Source of the DNA: Psychrobacter sp. P2G3
GTDB lineage: Bacteria > Pseudomonadota > Gammaproteobacteria > Pseudomonadales > Moraxellaceae
NCBI RefSeq assembly: GCF_001593285.1
Contig: NZ_CP012529.1
Coordinates: forward strand, 2,480,001 to 2,544,000
Reading direction: 5' to 3'
Length of the DNA stretch: 64,000 nucleotides
Positions 7,170 to 29,100 of this stretch are shown here, piece by piece; positions within the stretch are counted from its first letter, which is position 1, and each line of letters opens with the position of its first letter. Made by a program: the position numbers and the translations under genes. A model generated the notes under the pieces. That model made no database searches. It had not been told where the DNA came from and saw only the letters and a list, made by a program, of their open reading frames with translations.

Positions 7170-7406
7170 ATCTCTTTATCCTTATAGCCATTATGGAATT
7201 GCTTTTATGATACGGATATATAAGGATAAACATGAGACAAAAAGGTAGCGTAATGTAGCACTAATGTACTGTAAAACATTGTCTAATAATTACCTTTTTT
7301 CTATGACTATCATATACTTAGGTAATGCTATTGCAGTAGAAATAAGGTATAATGTTATTCCGTTTTTTATAATGTTACTTCACCTTTTTAGGTCATTTAA
7401 GCCTCT

Positions 7407-8255
7407 ATGCTAAATACGTCCCACCTAACAGACTTACTATACGATAATACTTATCACTCTTTAACGGGCGTTGATTTTGACATTATTGCTGATTTTGATA
7501 CTTCTGGTTTTGATACTGAGTCGGCCTTGGCTTTTGCAAGCTTACCGCTTATCATTCAAGAGCAAATGTTGCAGAGTAAACGGATTGTATTGATAGCAAA
7601 TAACCCTTCAATAGATACAGCGAGCTTAGAGGCGCTGTTGCAGCTGACAGATATGCTAGTTTTGTTCAATGACTTTATTCATGCTGATTTTTTTGCTCAT
7701 CACCCTAGCGCTAAAGATCTACCAAAACTGTTATTTTTTAGAAAAATCGGCGACAGTTTATTGCATTTTGGCATGCCGCCGCGTAGTAACAACTTAACTG
7801 CAATGCTAGATATGGCAAAGCATGCACCACTTGGCATCTTGTTTGGGAATGCTGACTACCAGTTTCCATTACCAGCTGACGACCCTAGCCCTAATGATGA
7901 TCCGATAACAGCCAGCCGAGTATTAAAGATTCCAGAACTGCTAAATCATTTATTGCATAGCGATGAGCATTGTCGCGTGCTATCAGATCAGCATAGCGTG
8001 GTGGCAGATTATCCTATTTTTGCTGATATCCATTCATCAGCGCCGACCTCAGGGTTTCTGTTATATCGGCTATTATTAGCGGCGCGCTTACATGTGCAGC
8101 AGCGACAAAACGCTGCGACTCCGCTATCGATAGTCATGTTGGGCTTTAATAATGATGATAAAACAGCGCACTTTTGGGATGGGCATAATTGGGCGTTTGA
8201 AAGACAAGAGCTTGCGACGCCGCCTAATAGCGTCGAGATTATCCGTCAGTATTAA
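7407..8255 (+). CDS. Unrecognised protein with sialyltransferase-like (GT29/GT42-type) motifs
   Basis: 282 residues, no signal peptide or membrane segment. An early segment RIVLIANNPSIDTAS (about residues 60-74) followed by DMLVLFNDF resembles the 'GNGPSL ... D-x-V-x-x-FN' pattern of GT29-like and GT42-like transferases. Near the C-terminus, SSAPTSGFLLYRLLLAARL then SIVMLGFN and HFWDGHNWAFERQE resembles their second conserved region (Thr/Ser-Gly, an 'I-x-L-x-GF' strand, then His-x-Trp-x-x-Glu). It lies head-on to the minus-strand glycosyltransferase locus at 8322-14105, 66 bp from its end, which fits a role in surface glycan synthesis. The family match is by motif only. Start ATG 7407 has no clear Shine-Dalgarno. 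Confidence 0.5.
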   Translation: MLNTSHLTDLLYDNTYHSLTGVDFDIIADFDTSGFDTESALAFASLPLIIQEQMLQSKRIVLIANNPSIDTASLEALLQLTDMLVLFNDFIHADFFAHHPSAKDLPKLLFFRKIGDSLLHFGMPPRSNNLTAMLDMAKHAPLGILFGNADYQFPLPADDPSPNDDPITASRVLKIPELLNHLLHSDEHCRVLSDQHSVVADYPIFADIHSSAPTSGFLLYRLLLAARLHVQQRQNAATPLSIVMLGFNNDDKTAHFWDGHNWAFERQELATPPNSVEIIRQY

Positions 8256-8321
8256 TACATCAGCACTAACGAATCAGTGTTAATAAAACAGAGCCTCTAC
8301 ATCATTTAGATATACAGCATA

Positions 8322-9299
8322 CTAAACATAAGGCGCATCCGGATAATGAGCCGCTCTAATCTCGACTTCACTTGGCTGTCGATTGATAGCAATCGGTACT
8401 GTCTGCGTATCTTGCCAGTTAATCAATTGCAACTGCGCAAACTCTGCTAACCATACTGACATCGGCCAATGTTGCCATTTTTCATAAAAGCGATTGGCAT
8501 TGATAACGATACTATCTAAATGATTAAGCGGCGGTCTATAGACACTATGCTGTTGATGGTAAATCACATCATCAGTTAAGTAAAAATCGATATTCAACGC
8601 ACGCGCCATAAAAGCAAAATCCGTATCTTCAGCGCCGTAGCCGACATAATCCGTATCAAAGCCACCAATTTTCTCAAATTGACGGCGCATGATCGCAAAG
8701 CAAAGACTCCAAAATGCACCATAATCTTGCGTCTGTTTAATAGACTTATCTTGATGCTGCAAATCAAAGTTATCCCGATAAGGGTTAAATACGGACAGCT
8801 TGTCTAGATAATCGGCTGCTAATTTACCTTGTTGTAGCTGACTACCCTCATCATCGGTTAAAGGACGCATCAGATAACGCGGTTGACCCATCAGTAAGGC
8901 TTTGGAATGTGCTTGGAGTTTATAATGTAGCTGCTCAATAAAGGTTGGGGCGACGATACAATCTACATCCAAGAAAACCATGGCGTCATACGTGGCGCGC
9001 GCGGCTCCAAGGTTACGGTTACGACCAATATCAAATGATGCGCTACTTGCTAATCCATCCTCAGTCGCTGTAGTCGTTGCTATCTTAATAATATTTAAAT
9101 CGTACTCTGCTAGACGTTCATGCTCAGCATCGTCATTAACGATAATAATTTCTGCTGGTTTGACACTACCCTGCGACAAACTACTGAGTAGATTGTAGAG
9201 GTGTCGATTGCGTCCATAGCAGGTAGTAATGACGCTTAAAGGCACGCTAACGGGAGTAGTGGCATGAATGGCGTCTTGCGCTTTGGTTATCGTTGTCAT
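8322..9299 (-). CDS. Glycosyltransferase family 2 protein with galactosyltransferase-type C-terminal motif
   Basis: 325-residue cytoplasmic GT2 enzyme. The GT-A nucleotide-binding start SVITTCYGRNRHLYNLLSSL is at about residues 21-40, the DxD-type metal motif is MVFLDVDCIV (about residues 111-120), and GGFDTDYVGYGAEDTDFAF (about residues 215-233) is the Glyco_transf_7C signature with an Asp-Glu base pair. It is the promoter-distal gene of a minus-strand set, starting 17 bp after the stop of the MurG-like transferase. It probably adds a sugar to a surface polysaccharide or glycolipid; the acceptor cannot be read from sequence. Confidence 0.85.
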   Translation of the reverse strand: MTTITKAQDAIHATTPVSVPLSVITTCYGRNRHLYNLLSSLSQGSVKPAEIIIVNDDAEHERLAEYDLNIIKIATTTATEDGLASSASFDIGRNRNLGAARATYDAMVFLDVDCIVAPTFIEQLHYKLQAHSKALLMGQPRYLMRPLTDDEGSQLQQGKLAADYLDKLSVFNPYRDNFDLQHQDKSIKQTQDYGAFWSLCFAIMRRQFEKIGGFDTDYVGYGAEDTDFAFMARALNIDFYLTDDVIYHQQHSVYRPPLNHLDSIVINANRFYEKWQHWPMSVWLAEFAQLQLINWQDTQTVPIAINRQPSEVEIRAAHYPDAPYV

Positions 9300-9316
9300 A
9301 GAAATATTTGCTCTTA

Positions 9317-10585
9317 TTATCTTTCAGGTTTTATACCTAGCTGCGGCAATAACCATTCCTCAAACCAAGCTTTAACGGAAGTATAGTCAGCGAAACTATC
9401 CATAAATTCTTGCGCTAGCATATTAGCTTGGTTACCCGTCAAAGCAGTCTTATCAGTGTTGATTGATTCATTGATAACTGATTCGTTGTTAATTGACTTA
9501 TTGTTAACTGATAAAAAAGACGGTATATCCTGACTACCCAAACTTGAAATTTGAGCGATAAACTGCGGCCAACTTAAAGCACGGCCTTGCTCAATCAGTG
9601 CCTCTGCCATGACTTCCTGCTCACGATGCGGACGCTCATCTGGTAATACCACAAGCGGCGTCGCATAGTCATAGGCTTGCGCAATACCGTTCAAACCACA
9701 AGCCATCAAAAGCAGGTCACTATAGGCAATAAATGACGTTACATCATCTACGTGCGCAGCAATATCGACATAATCACGTGCCTCGTCGTTAATAGGTCCA
9801 AGCGATATAATCAATGCATTGGGTAATGCACGGCGCAGCTGTAGCAGCTTGGCATCAATAGCATCGTGACCACCATAGCCCTTAATGACGGTAACAATAC
9901 TACCTTCGTTGGCATTATCTTCAGCTGATTTATTGACAGCGTCTAAACGCGAGTAAAGTCGCTCATGAATAGTATTATCAGTAGTGAGCGTCATGAGCTT
10001 ATTTATAAAGGCGGTAAACGTTAACAGCTCATCCGTCTTATTGGGCATGAAATCAAGATATAGCGTTTTTTGGCGTACCCAGTCCGGCGTTGCTGGCGCT
10101 TCAAGCGCCTTTGGATAAGGAGCTAATAATCCCAGCGCGCCAGCAAAGGCATTCAAATGTGGCATATCATCGCGCTCGCCTGCCAGCTTTACATATAAGT
10201 AAGGCACACTAGCAGCGCGGCATAGCATGGCAACTTCGGCGCTCACATCGATAATCATTAGGTCAATCTGACGCTGACGGATCTCATCGAGTAGCTGCCA
10301 GCTACGCGTCTGCACATGACGATTACCTACTGGCGAGTAATGCAAACTACTTGGCTGCCAATATTTTCCAGCTCGTCCTGGCAGTACATCTTCTGGCAGC
10401 TGATCCTCAGCGCTTAAACGTACGATTTGCTCATCAGTTATCGTACTAAAGCGATAACCATCAATAGGTAAACTGGTAAACACCGTCATCTGATCGCGTA
10501 ACTCGAGCGGCAATAATGCAGCCAATTTATCTGCTTGGCGGCAGTGACCTGAACCATGATGATGGGCATAATAGCCAATACGCAT
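9317..10585 (-). CDS. Glycosyltransferase, GT28/MurG-like fold
   Basis: 422-residue GT-B type protein. The N-terminal YYAHHHGSGHCRQADKLAALL has the Gly/His loop of MurG-like and PF13528-type transferases. The C-terminal half has a nucleotide-sugar site: LLLMACGLNGIAQAYDYATPLVVLPDERPHREQEVMAEALIEQG is split here into FIAYSDLLLMACGLNG and ATPLVVLPDERPHREQE. Near the C-terminus an Asn/Ser/Ile-rich linker (VNNKS, INNES, VINES, INTDK) is encoded by four 15-bp tandem units at 9456-9515. It overlaps no gene and lies between a GT4 and a GT2 gene on the same strand. Sugar and acceptor are unknown. Confidence 0.75.
   Translation of the reverse strand: MRIGYYAHHHGSGHCRQADKLAALLPLELRDQMTVFTSLPIDGYRFSTITDEQIVRLSAEDQLPEDVLPGRAGKYWQPSSLHYSPVGNRHVQTRSWQLLDEIRQRQIDLMIIDVSAEVAMLCRAASVPYLYVKLAGERDDMPHLNAFAGALGLLAPYPKALEAPATPDWVRQKTLYLDFMPNKTDELLTFTAFINKLMTLTTDNTIHERLYSRLDAVNKSAEDNANEGSIVTVIKGYGGHDAIDAKLLQLRRALPNALIISLGPINDEARDYVDIAAHVDDVTSFIAYSDLLLMACGLNGIAQAYDYATPLVVLPDERPHREQEVMAEALIEQGRALSWPQFIAQISSLGSQDIPSFLSVNNKSINNESVINESINTDKTALTGNQANMLAQEFMDSFADYTSVKAWFEEWLLPQLGIKPER
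9456..9515 (-). repeat. 15-bp tandem repeat, four units, in the MurG-like gene
   Basis: Units start at 9456, 9471, 9486 and 9501 on the plus-strand numbering and share the pattern TTG-T/A-T-A-A-C/T-TGA-x-T-x-A. They encode consecutive pentapeptides in a polar linker before the last 45 residues. They match the 15-bp period seen in other genes of this window. Confidence 0.7.
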
Positions 10586-14729: not shown

Positions 14730-16076
14730 TTAGTTTAAAATACCATAAGCACATAACGCATCAGCCACTCGTTTGAAACCGACAATGTTGGCACCTGCTA
14801 CATAGTCAATATAACCATTGTCAGTCTGATTGTACTTCTCTGACGCTTCAGCCGCGCAATCATGGATATTCTTCATTATAAGTTTTAGACGCTCATCAAT
14901 TTGATCAAAACTTTTATATTGACGTACTGAATTTTGTGACATCTCAAGCGCAGATACTGCGACCCCTCCAGCATTTGCTGCCTTACCTGGCGCATAATGC
15001 ACACGATGCAGACAGATATAATCAACTGCTTTGGCAGTCAGAGGCATATTAGCGCCTTCAACTACGTATTTTATGCCGTTTTCAACCATCAGTTTGGCAT
15101 CATCTTCATCAACTTCGTTTTGAGTGGCTGAAGGGATAGCGATATCGCCCTTAAACTGCCATGGCTTTTGATCGGCAAACCACTCGCCACCATAGACATC
15201 GACATAGTCAGCTAACGGCTTACTTTGTTCTTTTTGCTTTTTAAGCCAGTCGATTTTTTCTTGATCGAGACCTGCTTCATCATATAAAGTACCTTTTGAA
15301 TCAGACACCGTAATTGGAATACCACCGAGCATAAAGACCTTTTCAGCAGCATGTAGTGAGACGTTACCCGCCCCTGATATCAACACCCTCTTACCTTTGA
15401 TATCTTCGTTCTGCGCGGCCAGCATATTCTCTAGGAAGTAAACTGCGCCATACCCTGTGGCCTCCGTACGCACCAAGCTACCACCAAAACCTACGCCTTT
15501 ACCGGTTAATACACCGCCGTGCTCGTGAGTCAAGTTCTTGTACATGGCAAACATATAACTGACTTCACGGCTGCCAACACCGATATCGCCTGCTGGTACG
15601 TCAACGTCTTTACCAACATAGTGATGTAATTCGCGCATAAAAGCATAGCAAAAACGACGAATATCATTATCAGTTTTGCCCTTAGGGTCAAAATCAGAAC
15701 CACCTTTACCGCCGCCCATAGGTAGACCAGTCAATGCATTTTTGAAGATTTGCTCAAAGCCTAAAAACTTCAAAATAGATTGATTCACCGATGGATGAAA
15801 ACGTACGCCACCTTTATAAGGTCCCAAAGCGTTGCTGAACTGAACACGCCAGCCGCGATTGACTTGAACTTCGCCTTTATCGTTTTCCCAGTTAATACGA
15901 AAAGCGATAATACGATCAGGCTCTACTAGACGCTCGAATATTTTGAATTTTTGGTATTCAGGATGAGCATCATATAAAGGGGCAATGGTAAGCGCAACTT
16001 CTTTGACTGCTTGAACAAACTCAGGTTGATGGGCATAGCGCGCTTCAACTTTTTCGATGGCCTGACTGATACTCAT
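14730..16076 (-). CDS. gdhA: NADP-type glutamate dehydrogenase
   Basis: 448-residue cytoplasmic enzyme making glutamate from 2-oxoglutarate and ammonia, or the reverse. The hexameric GDH signatures are visible: PYKGGVRFHPSV (about residues 87-98), the catalytic Lys in LPMGGGKGGSDFDPKG (Lys124), the Asp in DVPAGDIGVG, and the Rossmann loop SGAGNVSLHAAEK. A 448-residue length and the MSISQAIEKV-type N-terminus match the NADP-dependent small GDH subfamily; cofactor choice is inferred from that. It is monocistronic, with a terminator downstream and a 660-bp divergent intergenic region upstream. Nearby hut genes also produce glutamate. Confidence 0.95.
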   Translation of the reverse strand: MSISQAIEKVEARYAHQPEFVQAVKEVALTIAPLYDAHPEYQKFKIFERLVEPDRIIAFRINWENDKGEVQVNRGWRVQFSNALGPYKGGVRFHPSVNQSILKFLGFEQIFKNALTGLPMGGGKGGSDFDPKGKTDNDIRRFCYAFMRELHHYVGKDVDVPAGDIGVGSREVSYMFAMYKNLTHEHGGVLTGKGVGFGGSLVRTEATGYGAVYFLENMLAAQNEDIKGKRVLISGAGNVSLHAAEKVFMLGGIPITVSDSKGTLYDEAGLDQEKIDWLKKQKEQSKPLADYVDVYGGEWFADQKPWQFKGDIAIPSATQNEVDEDDAKLMVENGIKYVVEGANMPLTAKAVDYICLHRVHYAPGKAANAGGVAVSALEMSQNSVRQYKSFDQIDERLKLIMKNIHDCAAEASEKYNQTDNGYIDYVAGANIVGFKRVADALCAYGILN

Positions 16077-16735
16077 AGATCTTCCTTAACTATAGAACGT
16101 GTGATGGTACTCGATTACATCTCTACAATACCGTACTCAGTAGACTACGGCATTGCAAGTACTGATGCAGGATTGATTTTTTGCGTTCGGTACACAAAAG
16201 GCTAGCGGGATTAAAAGCCGATAAGTTAAGCAACCGACAGGCGTCATGACGTTTATATGTCTATTGCATATCACTTTGAGACTACTGAGTATGTACAGAT
16301 GGGATCGGTATGACAAAGACAGTAATTGTGGCGCGCAGCTTATATGGTCAAAACGGTTGGTTACTTGACATCTCCTATTTAATTTACCCTGCTACTGAAA
16401 AAAGTCAATCCCGTATTGCAATATAAATGCTACTAATTATGAACGGCTATGGTTATAGACGAATACATTCTAAGGCATCTTATTGATTCTTATCATATAT
16501 TGGCCTAGACAAGCGTATGAGCGGTATAAAAAGTAAAGCAAATGGCAAAAAACTTAACTTAAATTCGATAATTTCATATCATTATTAATAGTAAGGCATT
16601 ATAATAATCCACATTGCTAGTAAGGTATTATAATCGTTTACCTGAATACATCCTTTGTTTAAATACAAAGTTATTTTTGAATATTATCAATGAATGGTTT
16701 GTGTCCATTTAACAATGAGAGATTGTGAGATATCT
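16077..16735. other. Divergent promoter region gdhA / roadblock gene with two 17-bp direct repeats
   Basis: A gene-free stretch of about 660 bp. Near its plus-strand end, TAGTAAGGCATTATAAT at 16589-16605 recurs as TAGTAAGGTATTATAAT at 16618-16634 (16 of 17 identical, 29 bp apart). Each copy ends in a -10-like TATAAT, so they may be tandem promoters or paired operator sites for the roadblock gene. No other structure is evident. Confidence 0.5.
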
Positions 16736-17098
16736 ATGCGTACAGATTCGTTCCAACAAATACTAGAAGACCTTAATAGCTCATCAGCAGACGTCGAAGC
16801 CTCTGCTCTAATCTCAAACGATGGCTTAATGATAGCTTCAGCTTTGCCGACAGGCGTGGATGAAGACCGCGTTGGTGCTATGTCAGCAGCGTTATTATCG
16901 TTGGGTGACCGCGCAGGTCGTGAGTTGGCTCGTGGCAGTATTGACCGTATTATGATTCAAGGTGAAAAAGGCTATGTGATTATGACTTCATCGGGCGATG
17001 AAGCAGTCCTTACGATTATGGCCAAAACCAATGCCAAACTTGGGTTGATATTTTTGGACATTAAACGCGCCTCAGAAGCACTTGCCAAGCTGATCTAA
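16736..17098 (+). CDS. Roadblock/LC7 (MglB-like) domain protein
   Basis: About 120 residues made almost wholly of one roadblock/LC7 domain: helix SFQQILEDLNSSSADVEASALIS, the 'NDGLMIASALP' strand-turn, the helix GAMSAALLSLGDRAGREL, then the strands IDRIMIQGEKGYVIMTS and AVLTIMAKTNAKLGLIFLDIKRA. Such proteins dimerise and act on small Ras-like GTPases (MglB on MglA) or serve as scaffolds. No GTPase gene is in the window. Two in-frame upstream ATGs (16694, 16715) exist; I prefer 16736, where GTGAG lies seven bases before and the domain starts at once. First gene of a five-gene plus-strand set. Confidence 0.85.
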   Translation: MRTDSFQQILEDLNSSSADVEASALISNDGLMIASALPTGVDEDRVGAMSAALLSLGDRAGRELARGSIDRIMIQGEKGYVIMTSSGDEAVLTIMAKTNAKLGLIFLDIKRASEALAKLI

Positions 17099-17287
17099 GT
17101 AATAGATCTAGGTAATAAAAATCATTCTTGTCGTCTAGCATAGTCGATCCACAATAATATCGACGCCAAAAAACCAAAGCAAACCAAGAGCAAGCTATAG
17201 ATTAATATGGCGAGCGAAGTTGAGACCGTAGCGGTTTTATGACTATAGACGACTGAAAATTTATAATGATAAATATAGGAGGTTATT

Positions 17288-17782
17288 ATGGGCTTTCCCC
17301 TTCTCGATGCCGCGAAGCCTGATATGCCAGCTGAGAAAGTTGCACTGACTTATCATGACGGTACTTCACGCAGCGTTTATGATTCTGCGATTGAACGTCC
17401 CTATCCTGATGGCAAGCTAATCGTCTCGCGTACGGATTTAGACGGTATCATCACCCATGTGAATGATGCGTTCGTCGAAATCAGTGGCTATACGACAGAC
17501 GAGCTAATCGGTCAGCAGCACTATATATTGCGTCACCCTGATATGCCCAATGCCGCTTATCAAGATTTATGGCAAACGGTGAAAGCAGGACAAAAATGGC
17601 ATGGCTATGTCAAAAATTTATGCAAAGATGGCAGCCATTATTGGGTATATGCGACTGTCGTGCCTAATGTACGCCGTGGACAAACCGTCGGCTATACGTC
17701 CGTGCGCCGTAAGCCCTCGCGTAGCAAGATTGAAGCGGCGACTATGCAATATGCCGAAATGAAACAGAATGAGGAAGGTTAA
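17288..17782 (+). CDS. Aer-like single PAS domain protein
   Basis: 164 residues. One PAS fold spans about residues 40-145. It starts with LIVSRTDLDGIITHVNDAFVEISGYTTDELIGQQHYILRHPDMP, here noted as the 'NDAFVEISGY' and 'LRHPDMP' motifs, and ends with KDGSHYWVYATVVPN and GYTSVRRKPSR. This is the Aer/PAS_3 subtype, which often binds FAD and senses redox state. The usual methyl-accepting or output domain is absent, so the signal must pass to another protein. A strong Shine-Dalgarno (AGGAGG at 17277-17282) precedes ATG 17288. Only 3 bp separate it from the PhnD-like gene, so the two are translationally linked. Confidence 0.85.
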   Translation: MGFPLLDAAKPDMPAEKVALTYHDGTSRSVYDSAIERPYPDGKLIVSRTDLDGIITHVNDAFVEISGYTTDELIGQQHYILRHPDMPNAAYQDLWQTVKAGQKWHGYVKNLCKDGSHYWVYATVVPNVRRGQTVGYTSVRRKPSRSKIEAATMQYAEMKQNEEG

Positions 17783-17785
17783 ATC

Positions 17786-18541
17786 ATGAACGAGAAGATG
17801 TATAACCTATTAATCGCCCCTGATTTTTCGCCTGATCATTTTGCAGGTTGGCATATGTTTAACACCTTAATCCAAAAGCGTGCGGACATTCACTTGCATC
17901 TCAATACACCGACCTCTCATGCTGAACAAGAAGAGATGGTCGATGCCGGTGACATACATATTATCTATGCCAATCCTTTTGATGCTGCCGCTTTGATTCG
18001 TGAAAAAGGCTATCGCGCCATCGCACGCCCAATCGGTAAATCTGATGAAATGGTCATTGCATCGGCCGCCAATAGTGACATTAATCACTTAGAAGATTTG
18101 ACCAAAGGCGCAACCATCGCTATGGCAGACAACCGCGATGTGAAGCTTATCGGTCTGCGCTTACTAGAAGCGGTAGACTTAGAAGAAGCAGATCTAAACT
18201 GGGAAGTGACCGAAACCTATCAAGCAGCGGCAAGGCAAGTTATCAAAGGTAACGCACAAGCTGCGTTCTTCTTAGCAGAAATCTTTCATAGCTTCTCACG
18301 TTTGACCAAAGCACAACTGTCAGTACTGATCGAAAGTGATTTGGCAGATATTAGTCATGTGCTACTGATTAAAGATGATTTCACTGAGGCGGACGCATTG
18401 AGTCAGGCGATACTCACCTTTCATCAAGATGATAGCGGTAAAGAGGCGCTTACCGAGCTTGGTATGCCGCAAGGCTTTGAGGCGATGAGCGAAGAAGATG
18501 GCGAGTTTATGTTGGATTTGATGGAAACCTTACTTGATTAA
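17786..18541 (+). CDS. PhnD-like substrate-binding fold protein without signal peptide
   Basis: 251 residues resembling PhnD/phosphonate-type periplasmic binding proteins: YNLLIAPDFSPDHFAGWHMFNTL at the start, then GDIHIIYANPFDAAALIREKGYRAIARP, a hinge with DEMVIASAANSDI and DLTKGATIAMADNRDVKLIGLRLLEA. In known family members the N-terminus carries an export signal; here the protein begins directly with the first strand, so it should stay in the cytoplasm. That makes a sensor role more likely than transport, and no ABC permease or ATPase adjoins it. It starts 3 bp after the PAS gene, suggesting the pair work together. The ligand is unknown. Confidence 0.7.
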   Translation: MNEKMYNLLIAPDFSPDHFAGWHMFNTLIQKRADIHLHLNTPTSHAEQEEMVDAGDIHIIYANPFDAAALIREKGYRAIARPIGKSDEMVIASAANSDINHLEDLTKGATIAMADNRDVKLIGLRLLEAVDLEEADLNWEVTETYQAAARQVIKGNAQAAFFLAEIFHSFSRLTKAQLSVLIESDLADISHVLLIKDDFTEADALSQAILTFHQDDSGKEALTELGMPQGFEAMSEEDGEFMLDLMETLLD

Positions 18542-18625
18542 GTTTTAAAAGGTCGTTCCTTTATAAAATCATGTATCGTCTGTCGCGCTAAAACCTATAA
18601 TATCCCTTATATTAAGGATACCGTC

Positions 18626-19330
18626 ATGGCTGATTTATTTCCAACTGACGAGTTACTTTTACATAAAAGCGGCGAGATGACTGCACGTCGCACGTTTCGT
18701 TATTACTCTCGGAAGATTTTCGCCGCGCCCAATAACCGCTACTATCACGAACAACGTATCAATGCCGCTTTGATGCTTAATGAAAAAGAACCGCTACAAG
18801 GCGCGGTCGCTGACTTTTTCTTTGGCTGTTGGTATGACATTCCTTACGATGTCAAAGATATCTTTGCTCGTATTCAAGGTCGCCTGCATCCGCAGATAGA
18901 GCACGCCTTTCATAACTGTATCAACAAGCTTGATTATATAAGGCACAGCAGTGAGTTTGCGACGCGCTGGAGCGTACTGGTAACGCCATCGTTGAACGTG
19001 CAAACCCATCGCCTACGTATCAGCAGTGATGATGCCAAAGAGATCGCTCGGAACATTACCAATGAGCTAATGAGCGCACGTGATGCGGCGGACTGGAATA
19101 CGATTGAGCAAATTGAGCGTGAATTTTTTGCTCATTGCTTGGCTTGTAATGATCGCTTAGCCTTCTCTATCGTTTGGTTTCGCTTAGGTAAAAGCGACTG
19201 GCAATTTGATGAACACTGGAGTGATTGCCAACAGCAATTAGAACAAACGGGTTCAACTTCTACAAAAGAAATCTTAGGCTCTAAGCCAGTAAAAAACACG
19301 CTAAGCTTAGACAACAAGGCAAGCGCGTAG
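18626..19330 (+). CDS. Unrecognised cytoplasmic protein of the roadblock-PAS cluster
   Basis: 234 residues, no signal peptide or membrane helix. I do not recognise the family. It is rich in aromatic residues and His in the first half (RTFRYYSRKIF, FFFGCWYDIPYDVKDIF), with predicted helices at about 130-165 (SSDDAKEIARNITNELMSARDAADW) and a conserved-looking CLACND near residue 175. The last 30 residues are polar and probably disordered. A good Shine-Dalgarno (AAGGATACCGTC) precedes ATG 18626. It lies 84 bp after the PhnD-like gene and 69 bp before the next member, so cotranscription is likely. Confidence 0.7.
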   Translation: MADLFPTDELLLHKSGEMTARRTFRYYSRKIFAAPNNRYYHEQRINAALMLNEKEPLQGAVADFFFGCWYDIPYDVKDIFARIQGRLHPQIEHAFHNCINKLDYIRHSSEFATRWSVLVTPSLNVQTHRLRISSDDAKEIARNITNELMSARDAADWNTIEQIEREFFAHCLACNDRLAFSIVWFRLGKSDWQFDEHWSDCQQQLEQTGSTSTKEILGSKPVKNTLSLDNKASA

Positions 19331-19399
19331 CTATTGCTGGTTTAACATTGCAACTGATTAACCCCTATTTTATTCCATCCTGTCGATAAGGTAACTTTT

Positions 19400-20014
19400 A
19401 TGTCCACTTTTGATGATGCTGACAAAACCTATATTACCTTAACCCCTGCTGGCGTGTTTGAAGCATTTTCCCAAAGTAAACCAACCGCACAGCAGTTGGC
19501 ATTACAGGCACTGTTGTCACATCGCGAGACGATGCTGGTCGCAGCATGGCTGGAGGAGTATTCAGAACGATGGTTAAATAACTTCGTTGAACAAGGTTTC
19601 ATTGAAAAGCTATCTACCTTTTTGCCCGCTCCCCACTTACCACTTGATCAGTTTTTGCCGTATGTGGTGGCAAGCTTATCCGGCAAGCGCCGCGCTGCCA
19701 TCGCTTCAGACGAAGGGTTTTGTTTGGCGCGCATTGGCTACAGCCAAGAAGAAGCCGACATGCTTAGCGTAGCGGCAGCGGACTTCTCTGGATTTATGTT
19801 ACGTCAAAGACAGCGCGGCTGGGCAGTTGAAAGCCAAGCGATATCTTTCTTCCAACAAGTTGATTTATTGATTCCTGAGACCAGCTTTGTATTTTTGTGG
19901 ATCGATGGTGGCGGCTATGCACTTATTATCGACGGTGAACCCTTGACCAATAATCGCGCCTTTGTTGAGCTAATCTGGGGCATCAAAACCTCTGGGCTAC
20001 GATTTGATAACTAA
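19400..20014 (+). CDS. Unrecognised protein, C-terminal half possibly a degenerate roadblock domain
   Basis: 204 residues. The N-terminal half is helical. From about residue 95 the order of elements resembles the roadblock protein at 16736: a strand and turn RAAIASDEGFCLARIG (compare ASALISNDGLMIASAL), a helix with SVAAADFSGFMLRQ (compare MSAALLSLGDRAG), then strands VESQAISFFQQ and SFVFLWIDGGGYALIID. This similarity is by eye and weak. A good Shine-Dalgarno (AAGGTAACTTTT) precedes ATG 19400. If real, two roadblock proteins bracket the PAS and PhnD-like genes, which suggests a heterodimeric scaffold or GTPase regulator. Confidence 0.65.
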   Translation: MSTFDDADKTYITLTPAGVFEAFSQSKPTAQQLALQALLSHRETMLVAAWLEEYSERWLNNFVEQGFIEKLSTFLPAPHLPLDQFLPYVVASLSGKRRAAIASDEGFCLARIGYSQEEADMLSVAAADFSGFMLRQRQRGWAVESQAISFFQQVDLLIPETSFVFLWIDGGGYALIIDGEPLTNNRAFVELIWGIKTSGLRFDN

Positions 20015-20161
20015 AGCTCCATTATAAAAAAACGTCAATGCAAAATATAACTTCGTCAAGGCATGACTTCGTACTGAAACTCTCCGATATCAAGCAATCG
20101 TGCATCTAATATGTCCAAACTAAGTGCACGCTTACAACCCATTCACTTTAAAAGTCAGCCA

Positions 20162-20237
20162 GTGCTGCTGGAATTAATTTTTGCAGCCTCTGTCACGCTG
20201 GCGAACAGCACACAAGAAAAGCTTATGCTAGTAGCAC
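20162..20237. repeat. Dispersed hairpin element, copy 4
   Basis: Arms GTGCTGCTGGAATTAATTTT (20162-20181) and AAAAGCTTATGCTAGTAGCAC (20217-20237) pair imperfectly around GCAGCCTCTGTCACGCTGG, then CGAACAGCACACAAG, a reverse-oriented relative of the 59432 core. It sits in the 480-bp gap between the roadblock cluster and the methyltransferase, where I see no other feature apart from a 49-codon frame that runs through the repeat. Confidence 0.55.
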
Positions 20238-20495
20238 GTCTTATAGAAGACTCCTTTTAATAGCAGACTTCAAAAAGCTAGCAACATCAGTAATGCTAGT
20301 AATATTAGTACCTTGCGAAATAACAATAACTCACCGAGCTATCAGGCATAATATTATCCAGTTAATCTTAAATTAATTACACCCACCTCTTTATATAGGC
20401 TGTTACTCAGTCTTTCCCACCTTTTTATTATCCAACTCCTGATAGTGGCAACCTCTGCCAATCCTTGCACTCTTGCTCATTTTTTAGGACAGTTT

Positions 20496-21161
20496 ATGAC
20501 TTCGCTTACTACTGTGCGCGTGCGTTATCAAACGATTGAAATTGGCAATACCGATATTCACATTTGCACCTTACGCGACAACCAACAATTCAGTGACCCT
20601 GACGATGAGGCACTCAATTTAGGTATTTGCTCGGCATCTTGGCCACTGTTTGGGGTGATATGGCCGTCAAGCTTGGTACTGGCTAACCATATGCTCGATT
20701 ATAATATCGCGGGTAAGCGTATATTGGAGGTCGGCTGCGGGATGGCACTATCCAGCCTACTACTTAATCATCGGCATGCGGACATCACGGCGACGGACTA
20801 TCATCCGACGGTCGAGTACTTCCTTGATCGCAATACCACGTTAAATAATAATAAAGAAATTAACTTTGAGCGCTTAGACTGGGCCGAAGACAACAGTCAA
20901 CTTGGACGCTTTGATATGATCATCGGTAGCGACCTACTCTACGAAGATCAGCATATCGATATATTGGCCGCATTCATTGATCGCCATGCCAGCTCCAACT
21001 GTGAAGTCATCATCGTTGACCCCGGTCGCGGACGCAAAAACAAGCTGACGACAAAAATGATTGAATCAGGCTTTAGTAGTCAACACATAAAACCTGAAGA
21101 TACTACTTATTTGGATCTACCGTTTAAGGGGCATATCTTGACGTTTTCTCGAAATAGTTAA
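20496..21161 (+). CDS. SAM-dependent methyltransferase, METTL21-like (Methyltransf_16)
   Basis: About 221 residues. The SAM-binding motif I is KRILEVGCGMALSSLLL (about residues 77-93), motif II acidic ADITATDYHP, and a post-motif FDMIIGSDLLYE (about 148-160). WPSSLVLANHML before motif I is typical of the class I protein-lysine or nicotinamide N-methyltransferase-like group. An upstream GTG at 20445 extends the frame, but ATG 20496 has AGGA at the right distance and begins the recognisable domain. It is monocistronic between a long gap and a convergent acetyltransferase. The substrate is not evident. Confidence 0.8.
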   Translation: MTSLTTVRVRYQTIEIGNTDIHICTLRDNQQFSDPDDEALNLGICSASWPLFGVIWPSSLVLANHMLDYNIAGKRILEVGCGMALSSLLLNHRHADITATDYHPTVEYFLDRNTTLNNNKEINFERLDWAEDNSQLGRFDMIIGSDLLYEDQHIDILAAFIDRHASSNCEVIIVDPGRGRKNKLTTKMIESGFSSQHIKPEDTTYLDLPFKGHILTFSRNS

Positions 21162-21301
21162 GATTTTTGAGAGATTTTAAAAAATCTGACTTAAAACTAT
21201 AATGGCAATTTATTAAATTTCTAACAAAAATATTTCTGATTTGTAAGAAAAAATCCTACTAACCACTATGGTTTGTATTTTTTGCCTTTAGAGTTTATTA
21301 A

Positions 21302-21880
21302 TTAACTATTAACAATAGATTCCTGCCACTGCTGTTGAGTAACCTTATACAAGACGTGCTCAGCAAGTGGATGGCTGGGATTAAGCATTGGATGATAAAA
21401 GTTTTCTTGTGTATCAGTCATACCAATACGCTGCATAATCAATTGCGAGTGCTTGTTAATAACGGCAGTAAAGGCGACGACTTCATCAAGCTCTAATGTT
21501 TTAAATGCGAACCTTAACGAGGCTCTTGCTGCCTCAGTTGCATAACCTTGTCCCCAATAGTCTTTGTGTAGTCGCCAACCAATTTCCACATTGGGCGCAA
21601 AAGGCATATCAGCATGTGCTTCATTCAAGCCAACCATACCGATAAAGGTATCCTTCTTTTCTAAACTGCCTTTTAGACTCACCGCCCAAAACCCCCAACC
21701 TTTATCTTCAATAAGCTGCTGGCACTTATTGGCTATCACATCGCTCAATGCTGGCGATAATAGCTTGGGAAAGTATTTCATTACCTCGGGATCAGCATTC
21801 ATTTCTGCAAACACCGCAAAGTCGCTTGGCTGCCATTGCCTGAGGTAGAGCCGTTCTGTTGTTAGCACTTTTTGCGTCAT
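21302..21880 (-). CDS. GNAT family N-acetyltransferase, RimJ/RimL type
   Basis: About 192 residues. The protein starts TTERLYLRQWQPSDFAVFAEMNADPEVMKYFP, recorded here as the 'TERLYLRQW' and 'NADPEVM' motifs, and continues with GWFWAV-like GWGFWAVSLKG, FIGMVGLNEAH, VEIGWRLHKDYWGQGYATEAA (the acetyl-CoA pyrophosphate loop GQGYAT) and LDEVVAFTAVINKHSQLIMQRIGM, all in RimJ/RimL order. It probably acetylates a protein N-terminus or a small amine with acetyl-CoA. A longer start at 21922 lacks a ribosome binding site; ATG 21880 follows GCAGG and matches family N-termini. It lies 76 bp downstream of the broken tautomerase gene on the same strand. Confidence 0.85.
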   Translation of the reverse strand: MTQKVLTTERLYLRQWQPSDFAVFAEMNADPEVMKYFPKLLSPALSDVIANKCQQLIEDKGWGFWAVSLKGSLEKKDTFIGMVGLNEAHADMPFAPNVEIGWRLHKDYWGQGYATEAARASLRFAFKTLELDEVVAFTAVINKHSQLIMQRIGMTDTQENFYHPMLNPSHPLAEHVLYKVTQQQWQESIVNS

Positions 21881-21956
21881 GATATTTTGCCTGCTTCGTC
21901 CAATGCCTAATTCTACTGACATCTAGTACATTCTGCACTATTAGTACGTTCTGCCG

Positions 21957-22343
<387 letters not shown>

Positions 22344-23108
22344 AAGTAAGCCTATATACTTTAGAGAAAATAATTTTATTTAATTTAATTAAAAACTCAT
22401 TTAATCACAAACCCTATTTCTTAGGAATAATAAAAAAAATATTTTATTATGATTAAATTTATATAACTTAAAATATAATCCTTAACTTATTATTTATTTA
22501 CATATTTAGAACTATTATTATATTTTGATTAAATTTATACATATATGAAAAAATTTTTACTTAAAATTTTACATCTTAATCTTTTAACCTTAAAAGACTA
22601 ATAAATAAAATTTAATATATTTTATTATTTATTAAACCATATTTATCTTTCGTCTTATCGAGAATCCATATCTTAGTAATGCTCATATAGTCTAATCGAT
22701 ACTTCGTACACTATACCTTACAAGGCATTGATAACACCTGCTTAATAATCTTAAAACAATCTCAAAACAATCTCAAAACAATGACTTTTAAAGCTATTTT
22801 TTTAGTTATATAAAACTTATAACTCATCTATGAAAAATAAAAACCTCTTATTTATATTCGTTTAAATGAATATTAAAATATCTATATACAATCTTTAAAA
22901 CGAATATTAATTATCAGTTAAAATAAAAATATAATTATGGTTTATAAAAGTTAATTAACTTCACTTTGTATTACTTTTGTATTACCATTAATTATAAATT
23001 ATTCGTTAATTAAAAGTATTAGTTATTTCTTCTCTACTAATGTCAATTTATTATCAGCAGATCTTACTGTTATCAGGCAGGGTTTTGACCACTACAGGAT
23101 GTTACCTT
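22344..23108. other. Very AT-rich leader upstream of the autotransporter gene
   Basis: About 765 bp, overwhelmingly A and T from roughly 22380 to 23000, with no credible gene. Such leaders are typical targets of H-NS-type silencers and give curved, promoter-rich DNA. I see many TATAAT-like boxes and cannot choose a promoter. No long homopolymer tract that would allow simple slippage-based phase variation was noticed. Confidence 0.6.
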
Positions 23109-26100
23109 ATGAATCGCAATTATAAAGTTATTTGGAATCAGTCATTAAACTGTTTTATGGCAGTAGCAGAATATGCGAAAAGTCGCGGCAAATCATCAAG
23201 TGCCGTCGTAAGCTCTAACGCTGCAAGTGCTTCCAATGACACGCTAACGGGAGGCGCGCAACTCTTGCGCCTTAGTGCATTGTGCGTGGGGCTAGCTAGT
23301 GCTGGATTTAGTATGCAAGCAGTAGCTGTTGTAGGAGCTAGTTCAATAGATACTAACGAGTGTCTTATTTCTGCTCTTGGCACAGATACCATGGCAGATA
23401 AGTCTACTGGTGATATCGCTATAGGCTGTGAGAGCGATGCTAGTGGTAGAAACAATATTGCAATAGGTGGTAGAGCAACGACTAAGGTAGATGCAGGAGA
23501 CATACAAGGCGCTCAAAGTATAGCCATAGGCTATGATACTCAAGTAAAAGGTGATCAATCTATAGGATTTGGTGCCAATGTACGCTCCAATAGTAGCTCA
23601 TCTATTGCAATCGGTGGTGATGATTTAGATTCAGCATCTAAGAGCAATATAGACGGTTCAACGAACAGTAATTTAAACAGTGGCGATGTCAACGAAGCTT
23701 TTAAAAAGTTCGCAGGTCGTGATTTAGTCTATACAGCTGCAGAAGGTGCAAGTAATCCAAATATTCCAGATGCAAATAGAAGACAATATATCGGCACAGA
23801 AACTGCTGGAGCTGCTTCAGTAGCTATTGGCGTACAAGCACAGTCAATCGGTGCGTTATCCACTGCATTTGGTACACAGGCTACCTCTATTGGTGTAGGT
23901 TCTACAGCTCTTGGTGTATCAGCCACTGCCACCAAGTCAGGTTCAGTCGCTCTTGGTGCTGGCGCAGAGACAGATAGCGATGCTACTTCCGAAAAGACAA
24001 TTGTAATAGGTGGCAACACCTATAACTTCGCTGGTAGTGTGTTAGATGATGTAGGTGCGGTCAAGTTAGGTGCGCAAGTCTCCGTCGGTGCAGCAGGGCT
24101 TGAACGACAAATAAAGAACGTCGCTGGTGGTAAAATTAGCACAGACAGTACTGATGCTATTAATGGTAGTCAATTAGCGGCTACCAACTCAGCACTTGAA
24201 GCTACTAATAACAATATTGTAGGCTTAACCAATGGCTCCGTAGGCCTTGTTCGTCAAGACAACGGAACAAACCCTATAACAGTTGGTAATGCTACTGGCG
24301 GCACAAGCGTTAACTTTGCTGGTACTAATGGCGTGCGTACGCTAAGCGGCCTTGCTAATGGTAATGTTACTACCGGATCAACCGAAGCTGTCACAGGTGA
24401 TCAGTTAAATACTACCAATACTCATGTCACCGACAACAGCAATCGCTCTACTGGCAACTTAGCTGCATTGGGCGGCAATGCTGCTTATGATGCGGCAAAC
24501 AATACTTATACCGCTCCAACTTATACTTTAGATGACGGTACCAATACGACTACGAATACCACGGTTAACAATGTCGGTGATGCGCTAGGCAACCTTGATA
24601 CTCGTACTACTACTAATACCACTGATATTGCGAAAGGCATCAACGTTGGCGATGGCACGACAGACAACAACTTTGCGCTAGGTAATACTATTAATGTCAC
24701 TGGTGACAGCAACCTAACCAGCAGCACCACCGCCGATGGCGTACAAGTTAGTTTAAATGAGAGCGTTGATCTTGGTGCAAATGGTAGCGTTAGAACAGGT
24801 AATACTACCGTCAATAGATCTGGTATTACTTTAACCGGTGGTACAAACCAAACAGTGACTCTAAGCAATGAAGGTCTTAATAACGGTGGCAATCGTATTA
24901 CTAAAGTTGCCGACGGTATCGTAGCTGATGACGCGGTGAATTTCGGTCAATTAGATGCAGCAGCAGGGGCTGCTGATACCAAGACTGATGCGCTAGGCAA
25001 CAGCACAGCAAGCAACTTAGGCGGCGGTGCAAGCTATAACGCTGCAACAGGTGTAGTTGAAGCACCCATCTATACCTTAAATAACGGCGATAACGATGGT
25101 AACACCACAGGCTATAACGATGTCGGTAGCGCACTAGGCAACTTAGATGGTCGCACCACGGCAAACACTTCTGGTCTTGCAGATCTGGCCTCAGGTAGAA
25201 CTGGTCTGGTTCGTCAAGACACAGGTACAAGCGCTATCACCGTTGGCGCTCAAACGGGTGGTACCAGCGTTGACTTTAGTAATTCAACAAATGAGAACCG
25301 TAAACTGACAGGCGTTGCTGCCGGAACAGCCGACAATGATGCGGTGAACGTGAGTCAATTAAATACTACCAATAGCAATGTTGCCACTAATGCTAGCAAC
25401 ATCACTGATAACGATAACCGCTCAGCAGGCAACCTAGCTGCTCTAGGTGGCGGCGCTGCTTATGATGCAGCAACTGATACCTATACTGCCCCAACCTATA
25501 CCTTGGATGACGGGACTAATACTGGCTCCAATACCACGGTCAACAACGTTGGTGGCGCTCTTAGTAATTTAGATACTCGTACCACTACTAATACCGCTGA
25601 TATTGCAAAGGGCTTTAACATTAGCGCAGCTGGTGGTACTAATGATAACGTTCAACTTGGTGAAAGCGTCAACTTCACAAATACCGACGGCAACCTAGTT
25701 GTGACCAATACTGTCGATAATGGCATTAACTACGACTTAGCAGAGAACATCAGTGTCACCCAAGCGACTATTGGTGATGCCACTAATAATACGGTATTGA
25801 CCAGCACAGCTAATGGTTTAGATGTAGGCGGTGATAAAATCACTAACCTATCCAACGGCACTATTGCTGCTGGATCAAGTGATGCAGTGACAGGTGATCA
25901 ATTAAATACTACCAATCAAAACGTTGCAGCCAACAGAACAGATATTGATACCAACACCAGCGATATCGACGACATCAACGCTGGTCGTACCGGTATCGTC
26001 CGTCAAGATGCTGGCACAGGCGCGATCACTGTTGGTGCTGCTACTGGTGGTACCAGCGTTAACTTTACTGGTACTGATGGCGTGCGTACCTTAAGTGGCC

Positions 26101-29100
26101 TTGCTAATGGTAACGTTGCTGCTGGATCAAATGACGCAGTGACTGGTGATCAGTTAAATACTACTAATACTAACGTTACTGCTAATAGAACAGACATCGA
26201 TATCAACGCAGGCAACATTACCGACAACAGTAATCGCTCTACTGGCAACCTAGCTGCATTAGGCGGCGGCGCTGCTTATGATGCAGCAACCGATACCTAT
26301 ACTGCCCCAACCTATACCTTGGATGACGGGACTAATACTGGCTCCAATATCACGGTCAACAACGTTGGTGGCGCGCTAGGTAACCTAGATATACGCACCA
26401 CCACCAATACAACTGACATCAATAAAGGTATTAGCTTTGGGAATGGCACGACAGATAATAACTTTGCGCTAGGCGATACTATTAATGTCACTGGTGACAG
26501 TAATATCACTTCTACTACTACTGCTAATGGCGTACAAGTTAGTTTAAATGAGAGCGTTGATCTTGGTGCAAATGGTAGCTTCACCGCCGGTAACAGTGTC
26601 TTAAACAACACCGGTCTGACCATTACGGGTGGACCGAGTATCACCAGTGCTGGTATCAATGCCGCCGGTAATAAAATCACCAACGTCGATGACGGTACGG
26701 ACGCAGGCGACGCAGTGAATTTCGGTCAGCTAGAAGCATCAAGCAATGCTGCTGATACTAAGACCGATGTCTTGGGCAACAGTACAGCGAGTAACCTAGG
26801 TGGCGGCGCGAACTATAACGCAGCCACTGGCGCAGTCAGTGCTCCAAGCTATACTTTAGATGATGGGACTAATGCTAGTGTCAACACTACGGTCAATAAC
26901 GTGGGCGCTGCCCTCACCAACCTTGATGGTCGTACCACTACTAACACTAGCGATATCGACGATATCAACGCTGGTCGCACCGGTATCGTCCGTCAAGACG
27001 CCGGTACAGGCGCGATTACCGTTGGTGCTCAGACTGGCGGTACAAGCGTTAACTTTACTGGCACTGATGGCGTGCGTACCTTGAGTGGCCTTGCAAATGG
27101 TAACGTTGCCACAGGTTCAACCGAAGCGGTGACGGGTGATCAATTAAACACTACTAATACCAACATCACCGACAACAGCAATCGCTCTACTGGCAACTTA
27201 GCGGCATTGGGCGGCAATGCTGCTTATGATGCAGCAAACAATACTTATACCGCTCCAACTTATACTTTAGATGACGGTACCAATACGACTACCAATACCA
27301 CGGTTAACAACGTTGGTGACGCGCTAGGTAACCTAGATATACGCACCACCACCAATACAACTGACATCAATAAAGGTATTAGCGTTGGGAATGGTACGAC
27401 AGACAATAACTTTGCGCTAGGCGATACTATTAATTTCACTGGTGATAGTAATATCACTTCTACTACCACCGTCGATGGCGTACAAGTTACTCTGAACGAT
27501 AATATTGATGTTAATAGAATCACTGCTGGTAACAGTACATTAAATAATGCTGGTGTTACCATTGTTGATGGTCCTAACAATACTGTTACCCTTAGCGGAT
27601 CTGGACTCAATAACGGTAATAATAGAATTACCAACCTAGCTGATGGCATTGCACCAAATGACGCAGCAACTTTCGGTCAATTAACAGACACCAATAATAT
27701 TGCAACAGGGAACTTGTCTGCCCTTGGCGGCGGTGCAACTTATAATGCTGTAACTGATACCTATACCGCGCCGACTTATACACTAAATAATGGTAGCAAT
27801 ACCGGTACCACCAGCGACTTTGATAACGTCGGTAGTGCACTAGGCAACCTAGATGGTCGTACCACTGCGAACACTTCTGGTCTCGCAGATCTGGCCTCAG
27901 GTAGAACTGGTCTGGTTCGTCAAGACACAGGTACAAGCGCTATCACCGTTGGCGCTCAGACTGGCGGTACAAGCGTTAACTTTACCAATGTAGGTGGCGA
28001 TGCTCGTCAACTAACAGGCGTGGCAAGTGCAGGTGATATAAGTTTACCTGCCAATGCAAATACTGCGGTGAATGCTGGTGACATGAATGCAGCGGTTACA
28101 GGCTTGACTAATGCTGGTCTAAACTTCCAAGGCGACGACGGTACATTGATCGATCGCAACCTTGGCGACACACTCAGGGTTACAGGTAGCGCAACTGGTA
28201 ACTTAACCACTGGCAATATCGGTGTGGTAGCAGACGGTACAGATGGTCTGAGCGTCCAGTTGGCTGAGAACATTAACCTTGGTACTGATGGTAGTGTGAT
28301 GACTGGCAACACAGTAACGGATAACACAGGCGTTACCATCACGGATGGTACTGTTGGTGGTAACTCAACCACCATCACAGCAGCAGGCACTAACGTAACT
28401 GATGGCATCAACACCAGCAACTACGGTGCAAACGGCTTCACAGCGACTGATGGGATCAACAGCACTACTGTTGGTACAGGTCGTATTAGTGTGAGCGGTG
28501 TTGACAACACCGACCCATCAAACCCTGTCTCCAACACCTTGGTATTAGATGGCAACACAGGACAAATTAGCGGTGTTGCCGATGCAACTGCTGCTGACCA
28601 AGCCATCAATAAAGGCCAACTAGACGCGATAGCAAATGCCGGTAACACTAAGGCAGATGCTTTGGGCAATAGTACAGCGAGTAACCTAGGTGGCGGCGCG
28701 AACTATAACGCAGCCACTGGCGCAGTCAGTGCTCCAAGTTATACCTTAGATGATGGGACTAATGCTAGTGTCAACACTACGGTCAATAACGTGGGCGCTG
28801 CCCTCACCAACCTTGATGGTCGTACCACTACTAACACTAGCGATATCGACGATATCAACGCTGGTCGCACCGGTATCGTCCGTCAAGACGCCGGTACAGG
28901 CGCGATTACGGTTGGCGCTCAGACTAATGGCAATAGTGTTGACTTTACTGGTACTGATGGCGTACGTACGCTAAGTGGTCTTACTAATGGCAACGTTGTC
29001 GCAGGTTCAACTGAAGCGGTGACTGGTGATCAGTTAAACAGCAGCGCAGCTTCTCTTGCAACCGTCATTGGTGGCAATGCAACGAACGCTAGCGGTATTG

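Follow-up and report, generated by a model that had tools for sequence, protein, structure and literature searches.

A Psychrobacter roadblock gene cluster with lone sensors, read as a GTPase-less derivative of Group 3 MglA systems

Within the window, a 64,000-nucleotide stretch of the Psychrobacter sp. P2G3 genome, lies a five-gene cluster that we consider, with a probability of about 0.6, to derive, with loss of the GTPase, from the Group 3 MglA systems of beta- and gammaproteobacteria and to encode a complex of roadblock proteins loaded with sensors. In our reading, the operon provides a platform of roadblock proteins for lone sensors that can be exchanged, and in this lineage it functions without its GTPase. 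Because relatives carry the same genes in one operon together with a Ras-like GTPase and a further gene, prec, the cluster appears to derive from a known system. At the level of sequence, this reading draws on the content and order of the genes, the homology of the parts, the loss of prec and the GTPase, and the purifying selection on what is left. Beta- and gammaproteobacteria are known to have Group 3 MglA systems, according to the sections of PMC4316618 covered here, and the literature sections covered describe no input for them.

Gene content of the cluster

A preliminary description of this DNA had listed five plus-strand genes in a row, and all five open reading frames are present at that place and in that order:

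16736-17098, plus strand: roadblock 1, an MglB-like roadblock/LC7 protein of 120 aa (Robl_LC7, E = 2.3e-18)
17288-17782, plus strand: lone Aer-type PAS protein of 164 aa, without an output domain (PAS_3, E = 3.7e-19)
17786-18541, plus strand: PhnD-fold protein of 251 aa, without a signal peptide (Phosphonate-bd, PF12974, E = 2.6e-37)
18626-19330, plus strand: u4 (gene 4), a 234-aa protein of a TPR-like family (profile comparison)
19331-19399, plus strand: 69-bp u4/u5 junction, the site of prec and the GTPase gene in relatives (comparison of loci)
19400-20014, plus strand: u5 (gene 5), a divergent second roadblock protein of 204 aa, with the roadblock part at about residues 82-200

Pfam bore out the roadblock, PAS and PhnD-like calls at the E-values listed. 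The tight spacing that had been described holds for the PAS and PhnD-like genes but not elsewhere: the gaps from gene 1 to gene 5 are 189, 3, 84 and 69 bp, so PAS-PhnD is the only really tight pair. Two proteins had been left as unrecognised, and neither indeed passes the Pfam cut-off, but their families can be named, as TPR-like for gene 4 and as a second roadblock protein for gene 5. A Pfam scan of the window genes from 14730 to 21922 found no transporter and no chemotaxis transducer, as had been claimed, and we reject either kind of gene as a member of the cluster; neither the histidine kinase CvnA nor the GTPase CvnD was among the genes scanned. Anti-phage defence was also rejected, as 0 of the 5 products had a PADLOC match at E = 0.01. 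The gene membership of the module is well supported.

The solved structures nearest to roadblock 1 are roadblock proteins, and 53 of its 120 columns are invariant among 15 relatives from several families. Robl_LC7 is matched by 28 of 34 members of the u5 family (E up to 1, best 1e-4), the window's own u5 remaining unmatched, and the family profile had CvnB5 as its sole hit below 0.01 among solved structures (E = 1.4e-4). On the strength of these Robl_LC7 matches and the CvnB5 hit, we assign u5 to the roadblock family. Early comparisons of u5 with roadblock profiles were weak (probabilities of 0.4, 7.5 and 0.8); a further one gave an E-value of 0.0047, where the best of 40 column shuffles reached 0.013. 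Group 3 systems are described as having one or two MglB proteins, and here we find gene 1 and, as a family, gene 5.

Profile comparison placed u4 in the family of the first gene of a gammaproteobacterial operon (probability 96.7; controls at most 0.4). TPR_19 was detected in 12 of 28 members of this family at E up to 0.1 and not in the window's own u4. The u4 model, built from six close sequences, is all-helical and of low confidence (mean pLDDT 58.3). The u5 model, likewise from six close sequences, has a mean pLDDT of 53.5, and Foldseek searches with these two poor models returned nothing at E = 0.001 or better.

Loss of the GTPase and its partner

Relatives with all seven genes in one operon were found in other Moraxellaceae, other Pseudomonadales and many Gammaproteobacteria. 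The common gammaproteobacterial order is u4, prec, an MglA-type GTPase, u5 and roadblock 1; a sensor cassette often comes next, PAS-PhnD in the window's cluster. Of 16 loci from other Moraxellaceae genera, 11 carry the Ras-like GTPase and prec between u4 and u5, which speaks against treating an absent GTPase as a defining trait of the module. Of the 18 Psychrobacter loci that carry this roadblock gene, 17 have the five genes intact, as the window does; the remaining one also contains the GTPase. Both prec and the GTPase are found at the u4/u5 junction in 1 of these 18 loci.

When 19 GTPases of relatives were aligned, TPGQ and DAR appeared in most of them and N/TKxD in none. The exceptions are an A or V for the T of TPGQ (L036 and L066) and DMR (L068), DPR (L066) or DGR (L157 and L180) for DAR. 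The covered sections of PMC4316618 give TPGQ, DAR and a missing N/TKxD as the motifs of Group 3 MglA, and by its sequence the cluster GTPase of relatives bears the marks of that published group. The Group 3 partner protein is described there as having a receiver-like N-terminal and a winged-helix-like C-terminal part. The prec proteins of relatives have no meaningful Pfam family match. The u4 and prec sets beyond Moraxellaceae were begun with members chosen partly by position, which profile comparison later confirmed; for prec, the sets matched with a probability of 98.0 (controls at most 0.4), and a direct comparison of Moraxellaceae prec with family-f37 prec gave 3.1. The Psychrobacter genome G194 gave one weak prec match (8.3e-5), which lies inside a frame of 1271 aa and is taken for chance.

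A Group 3-type GTPase is absent from the window and had no match in its own genome, G000, where the search covered the Group 3 profile and PF03029, both without a match; the controls G138, G101 and G184 were matched. The prec gene is likewise absent from the window and unmatched in G000, with G138, G101, G184, G234 and G446 matched in the same search, which supersedes an earlier one of 70 genomes that had no positive control. The preliminary description's "no GTPase" is therefore right for the cluster and, as regards the relatives' GTPase family, for the genome, but wrong for the cluster in related genera. A co-occurring Ras-like GTPase elsewhere, which it had envisaged, was not found in the genome itself, but 19 of 48 Psychrobacter genomes with a GTPase-less cluster have a paralogous one. 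A midpoint-rooted tree of 52 loci, read with support values left aside, has the cluster GTPase lost four times (one contig-edge case set aside). Judging from this comparison of loci, prec and the GTPase have been lost from the cluster in the Psychrobacter clade.

Alternatively, the roadblock pair might simply have exchanged its partner and still regulate a GTPase, one from a different family with its gene at another site in the genome. Regulating GTPases is the role for which roadblock proteins are best known (PMC4316618, sections covered), and roadblock 1 stays very conserved after the loss, its median dN of 0.052 among 16 GTPase-less Psychrobacter loci being the lowest of the five genes. However, loci that retain the GTPase likewise show roadblock 1 as the most conserved of the five, and G000 had no match to either model searched, PF00071, PF08477 and PF00025 standing outside that search. 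We consider a swapped GTPase unlikely.

Sensor proteins

The PAS protein closely resembles the PAS domain of E. coli Aer (E = 1.9e-37). Four of the six FAD-contact residues named in the covered part of the Aer work (PMC9668731; chain 8dik) are found in every PAS relative: the positions of R57, W70, N85 and R115 are identical in 16 of 16, whereas that of H53 is kept in 14 and that of M69 in 1 (mostly L). Unlike Aer, the protein is PAS only over its 164 aa, with no HAMP or chemoreceptor signalling domain in Pfam, in keeping with the description of a sensor without an output domain.

The PhnD-like protein had been proposed to lack an export signal, and its upstream region agrees. The codon before the ATG is ATC, preceded in the same frame by the TAA stop of the PAS gene, which excludes an upstream extension and hence a possible export signal there; we reject an exported PhnD-like protein. 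Its nearest solved structures by profile are ArrX, AioX and PtxB, of which AioX and PtxB are exported according to their structure names, in contrast to the window's protein, which has no signal peptide. ArrX is exported too, and both it and AioX act as sensors for kinases. PtxB's phosphite anchor, which we take to be its STSS stretch, is missing from the window's protein; the aligned position holds a stretch of the D-V-K-L-I-G type. A C-terminal stretch, with E-F-M near the end, is conserved. Redox sensing by the PAS protein and ligand sensing by the PhnD-like protein are plausible on these sequence features.

Other stand-alone sensors stand beside the roadblock gene in relatives: protoglobin in five loci, FIST in two and CZB in one. 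The sensor models were built from proteins of these loci, so that as a control they show no more than that there are no further copies elsewhere in the 40 loci.

Linkage and selection

The view that these genes form a conserved module was upheld by their linkage in Moraxellaceae. The PhnD-like protein is present in 65 of 199 genomes, and in 64 of these 65 a strong roadblock match lies on the same contig, at most 2 kb from its gene (compared by eye), which is far beyond chance; in the exception, G100, the two genes are on separate contigs. Roadblock proteins are the common element of the module, as had been supposed. The module is dispensable, since the PhnD-like gene is missing from 17 of 66 sampled genomes of one genus (g1).

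PAS-PhnD could instead be a separate unit that merely adjoins the roadblock genes and shares no pathway with them. The 189-bp gap before the PAS gene could hold a separate promoter: it contains the region's best-matching promoter-like site, with 10 of 12 matches, although such sites are near their chance number (13 versus 9.8). Many operons also do without PAS-PhnD, the PAS gene occurring in 14 of 37 class-level loci, a non-random sample fetched from 36 of 57 matching genomes in which some loci lack a gene merely because the contig ends. Against independence, the PhnD-like protein adjoins the roadblock gene in 16 of the 19 class-level genomes that have it, even across rearrangements that place u4 and u5 on the other side, and other lone sensors occupy the same place. 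We find a separate unit quite improbable.

The five remaining genes are, judging from a dN/dS of 0.01-0.08 in those gene pairs, 20 out of 25, whose synonymous sites were unsaturated, under strong purifying selection. A decaying, functionless remnant of a GTPase system is hardly credible: there are partly decayed clusters (L078, whose roadblock gene is truncated and whose PAS and PhnD-like genes are both missing; L103, with u4 and u5 only) and a split PAS gene in L045, but the window and nearly all Psychrobacter loci with this roadblock gene have the five genes intact, and these dN/dS values reject simple decay.

Proposed function

We infer the mechanism, ligands and output of this GTPase-less derivative from its parts. 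The FAD-type PAS protein would read the redox state or respiration of the cell, the cytoplasmic PhnD-fold protein would bind a small ligand, and both would bind the two roadblock proteins, which probably form a hetero-oligomer held by the TPR-like u4. In most relatives the sensor-loaded roadblocks would control the nucleotide-bound state of the GTPase; the loaded complex of Psychrobacter would act on another target, whether by itself or by way of a GTPase from a different family. That the output is the type IV pilus or polar functions is only a guess by analogy with other MglA systems. We tentatively entertain a bolder version, in which the roadblock pair itself would be the switch, biased by interchangeable sensors (FAD-type PAS, PhnD fold, protoglobin, FIST, CZB) and working in Psychrobacter and some other lineages without any GTPase.

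Relation to known systems

A literature search of titles and abstract starts, extending to few subscription journals, returned no PAS-PhnD-roadblock operon among the matches listed. The closest published counterpart is the Group 3 MglA system (PMC4316618), with which relatives share the G4/G5 marks of the GTPase, the adjoining partner and the roadblock proteins; the window differs in having lost the GTPase and partner, and the u4 family and sensor cassette are absent from the sections of that paper covered here. In the bee symbiont Snodgrassella, the passages covered of PMC11112851 describe a Group 3 mgl operon with mglA and several mglB genes, of which one is an orphan located apart from mglA, and a roadblock protein of 121 aa; there mglA is still present, and the PAS-PhnD cassette is unmentioned in those passages. 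The conservons CvnA-D of Streptomyces likewise combine a sensor, a roadblock protein and a Ras-like GTPase in an operon (PMC4316618 and PMC13343842, in the parts covered), and conservon protein CvnB5 is the best solved match of the u5 family, but their sensor is a histidine kinase and their GTPase is present (PMC4316618). In Myxococcus, according to the covered part of PMC9481161, two different proteins built around a roadblock domain, MglB and its co-GAP, act jointly on MglA; that system differs in retaining MglA and having no lone sensor genes.

Variation of the sensor cassette from one operon to another points to candidate inputs for these systems, namely redox, oxygen and small ligands. 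GTPase-less lineages with roadblock proteins under strong selection are natural knock-outs that may reveal what roadblocks do without that GTPase. The differing cassettes also provide matched pairs to compare, such as the two complete operons of G853, one with PAS-PhnD (L169) and the other with CZB (L151).

A five-gene cluster shared by part of the Moraxellaceae

We read this module, with a probability of about 0.6, as a sensor-roadblock platform that includes a Ras-like GTPase in most relatives; the present lineage is without the GTPase and its partner protein and has retained the rest. Which genes belong to the module, and the loss of the GTPase and partner, are well supported; how sensing works, the existence of a complex and what it acts on are inferred. 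The cluster and its flanking genes in the window are:

16736-20014, plus strand: five-gene cluster, as open frames
14730-16076, minus strand: glutamate dehydrogenase
20490-21161, plus strand: methyltransferase
21302-21922, minus strand: GNAT protein

Family searches of the window proteins identified gene 1 as a roadblock protein (120 aa, the single Robl_LC7 match in its own genome), gene 2 as a PAS protein and gene 3 as a PhnD fold, and gave no match above cut-off for genes 4 and 5 (u4 and u5). The intergenic gaps are 189, 3, 84 and 69 bp. Because the glutamate dehydrogenase, methyltransferase and GNAT genes adjoin the cluster only in Psychrobacter loci among those compared, we place them outside the module. 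A repetitive plus-strand open frame of 2875 aa lies at 23040-31667; it looks like a trimeric autotransporter adhesin.

The preliminary description proposed a five-gene signalling module, and the objection that the genes might be unlinked in relatives can be set aside. PhnD-like and roadblock genes lie on one contig, less than 2 kb apart, in 64 of the 65 Moraxellaceae genomes that encode the PhnD-like protein, as judged by matching the two sets of search results by eye, and 17 of 19 Psychrobacter loci (window counted) share the order roadblock-PAS-PhnD-u4-u5. The remaining two are L064 (genome G138), with two additional genes, and L103, one of two partly decayed clusters:

L103 (G023), 7663-8882: u4 with u5 alone, nothing else of the cluster
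L078 (G033), 6745-8796: truncated roadblock gene, u4 and u5 present, PAS and PhnD absent

Compared with five close Psychrobacter loci, the five genes gave dN/dS values of 0.01-0.08 in 20 of 25 pairs; synonymous sites were saturated in the other five.

Loss of the GTPase and its partner

Outside Psychrobacter, 11 of the 16 Moraxellaceae loci compared carry a Group 3 MglA-type GTPase (about 180 aa) and its partner, prec (about 400-460 aa), between u4 and u5, as does G138 within that genus. As for the other five, L042 and L043 lack both, L036 and L037 have a GTPase alongside a different roadblock subfamily, and L078 is the decayed locus. With few exceptions the GTPases carry GPVGAGKT-type, TPGQ and DAR motifs, and N/TKxD is absent from the relatives' sequences examined. 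The window's own genome gave no GTPase match with a single-sequence search or a 19-row profile, and no prec match with a 16-row profile; G138, G101 and G184 were matched in both profile runs. In 48 Psychrobacter genomes the PhnD-like gene is present and no GTPase adjoins it; 19 of them encode a paralogous GTPase elsewhere, and the remaining 29 gave no match at E 0.001. One Psychrobacter paralog has its own setting:

L066 (G192), 7556-9792, minus strand: BLUF (blue-light) protein, paralogous Group 3-type GTPase and its own two roadblock-like proteins

On the tree, the cluster GTPase is missing in 28 of 52 loci, spread over five clades. Since a contig end truncates L167, its clade was set aside, leaving four losses: family f37, L165, two genomes of genus g7, and Psychrobacter. 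Three of eight f37 genomes checked have a GTPase elsewhere; the 19-row profile found none of this family anywhere in the other five, nor in G606 (source of L155) or G651 (source of L165). In a bee symbiont's Group 3 system, mutation of an orphan mglB is reported to have made the bacterium a better coloniser of a non-native host, with type IV pilus motility a possible route (PMC11112851).

The PhnD-like protein

The PhnD-like ATG is at 17786, and the in-frame codons upstream are ATC and then the TAA stop of PAS; therefore, a signal peptide cannot be gained from an earlier start, and the earlier claim of a protein without an export signal stands. In 15 aligned relatives, the earliest start codon in the open frame falls within 4 residues of the aligned start. 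Among solved structures, the profile of this protein is nearest to ArrX, PtxB and AioX. In the alignment, the STSS stretch of PtxB stands opposite a D-V type stretch in this family, so the protein probably binds neither phosphite nor phosphonate.

Of the 199 Moraxellaceae genomes searched, 65 encode the protein (49 from the same genus, 16 from three others). Class-wide, its profile matched 51 of 369 genomes at E 1e-8, and 19 of these, including the window's own, are set apart by E below 1e-48 versus 1e-15 for the next genome. The gene lies beside the roadblock gene in 16 of the 19 and on a separate contig in G531, G676 and G783. The L165 operon, which has no GTPase, encodes a further PhnD-like protein of 244 aa, diverged from the first, between u5 and the roadblock gene (7484-8218, minus strand).

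Free-standing sensor proteins beside the roadblock gene

The match between the PAS protein and the PAS domain of Aer spans 118 residues. Aer N85, R57, W70 and R115 contact FAD in the crystal structure (PMC9668731), and all four residues are the same in 16 of 16 relatives; H53 is conserved in 14 and M69 in one. Aer-type PAS occurs in 14 of 37 class-level loci, always adjoining the roadblock gene. Other families' operons have other free-standing sensors there: protoglobin in five loci from five families (between u5 and roadblock in L147, L150, L155 and L171, after roadblock in L152), FIST in L154 and L156, and CZB in L151. L155 has a histidine kinase in addition, L171 combines protoglobin with PAS-PhnD, and in L158 the gene for a chemoreceptor-signalling protein follows roadblock at a distance of about 280 bp. 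Genome G853 contains two operons, L169 with PAS-PhnD and L151 with CZB.

The operon in the order and class

Across 293 genomes of the order, the gene 5 profile found 18, of which 11 belong to other families. Ten loci were fetched from other families: seven, all f37, read u4-prec-u5-roadblock-PAS-PhnD without GTPase, two have the same genes plus GTPase, and L102 lacks a roadblock of this type. Class-wide, 57 of 369 genomes have a match to the roadblock profile at E 1e-5. The 37 class-level loci in which the roadblock gene is present comprise u4-prec-GTPase-u5-roadblock with PAS-PhnD (11) or without it (10), prec-GTPase-u5-roadblock (7) and other forms (9). Four of those seven have a longer protein (505-532 aa) at the u4 position:

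L157, 306-1847
L164, 2375-3892
L180, 8931-10487
L184, 8958-10556

Two of these long proteins were inspected, and each begins with a hydrophobic segment; the L157 protein gives clear matches to TPR.

Of the 34 u5 family members, 28 are recognised by Robl_LC7 at E up to 1 (best 1e-4) and nine by LAMTOR5; the window protein on its own gave no family match. Against solved structures, the family profile ranks CvnB5 first (1.4e-4), then 3kye (0.04), Rv3364c (0.15) and LAMTOR2 chains (0.3 and above). TPR_19 is found in 12 of 28 u4 members at E up to 0.1, and that scan saw none in the window protein.

The open frame at L162 5468-7072 (534 aa) contains a roadblock match and may encode a fusion. Ordinary neighbours of the operon include PdxJ and ACPS (L145) and MiaE (L095). 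Downstream of the operon, L146 7020-8126 and L177 5464-7032 encode proteins with an apparent signal peptide, the latter with weak similarity to LysM and a match to a coiled coil; both look FimV-like.
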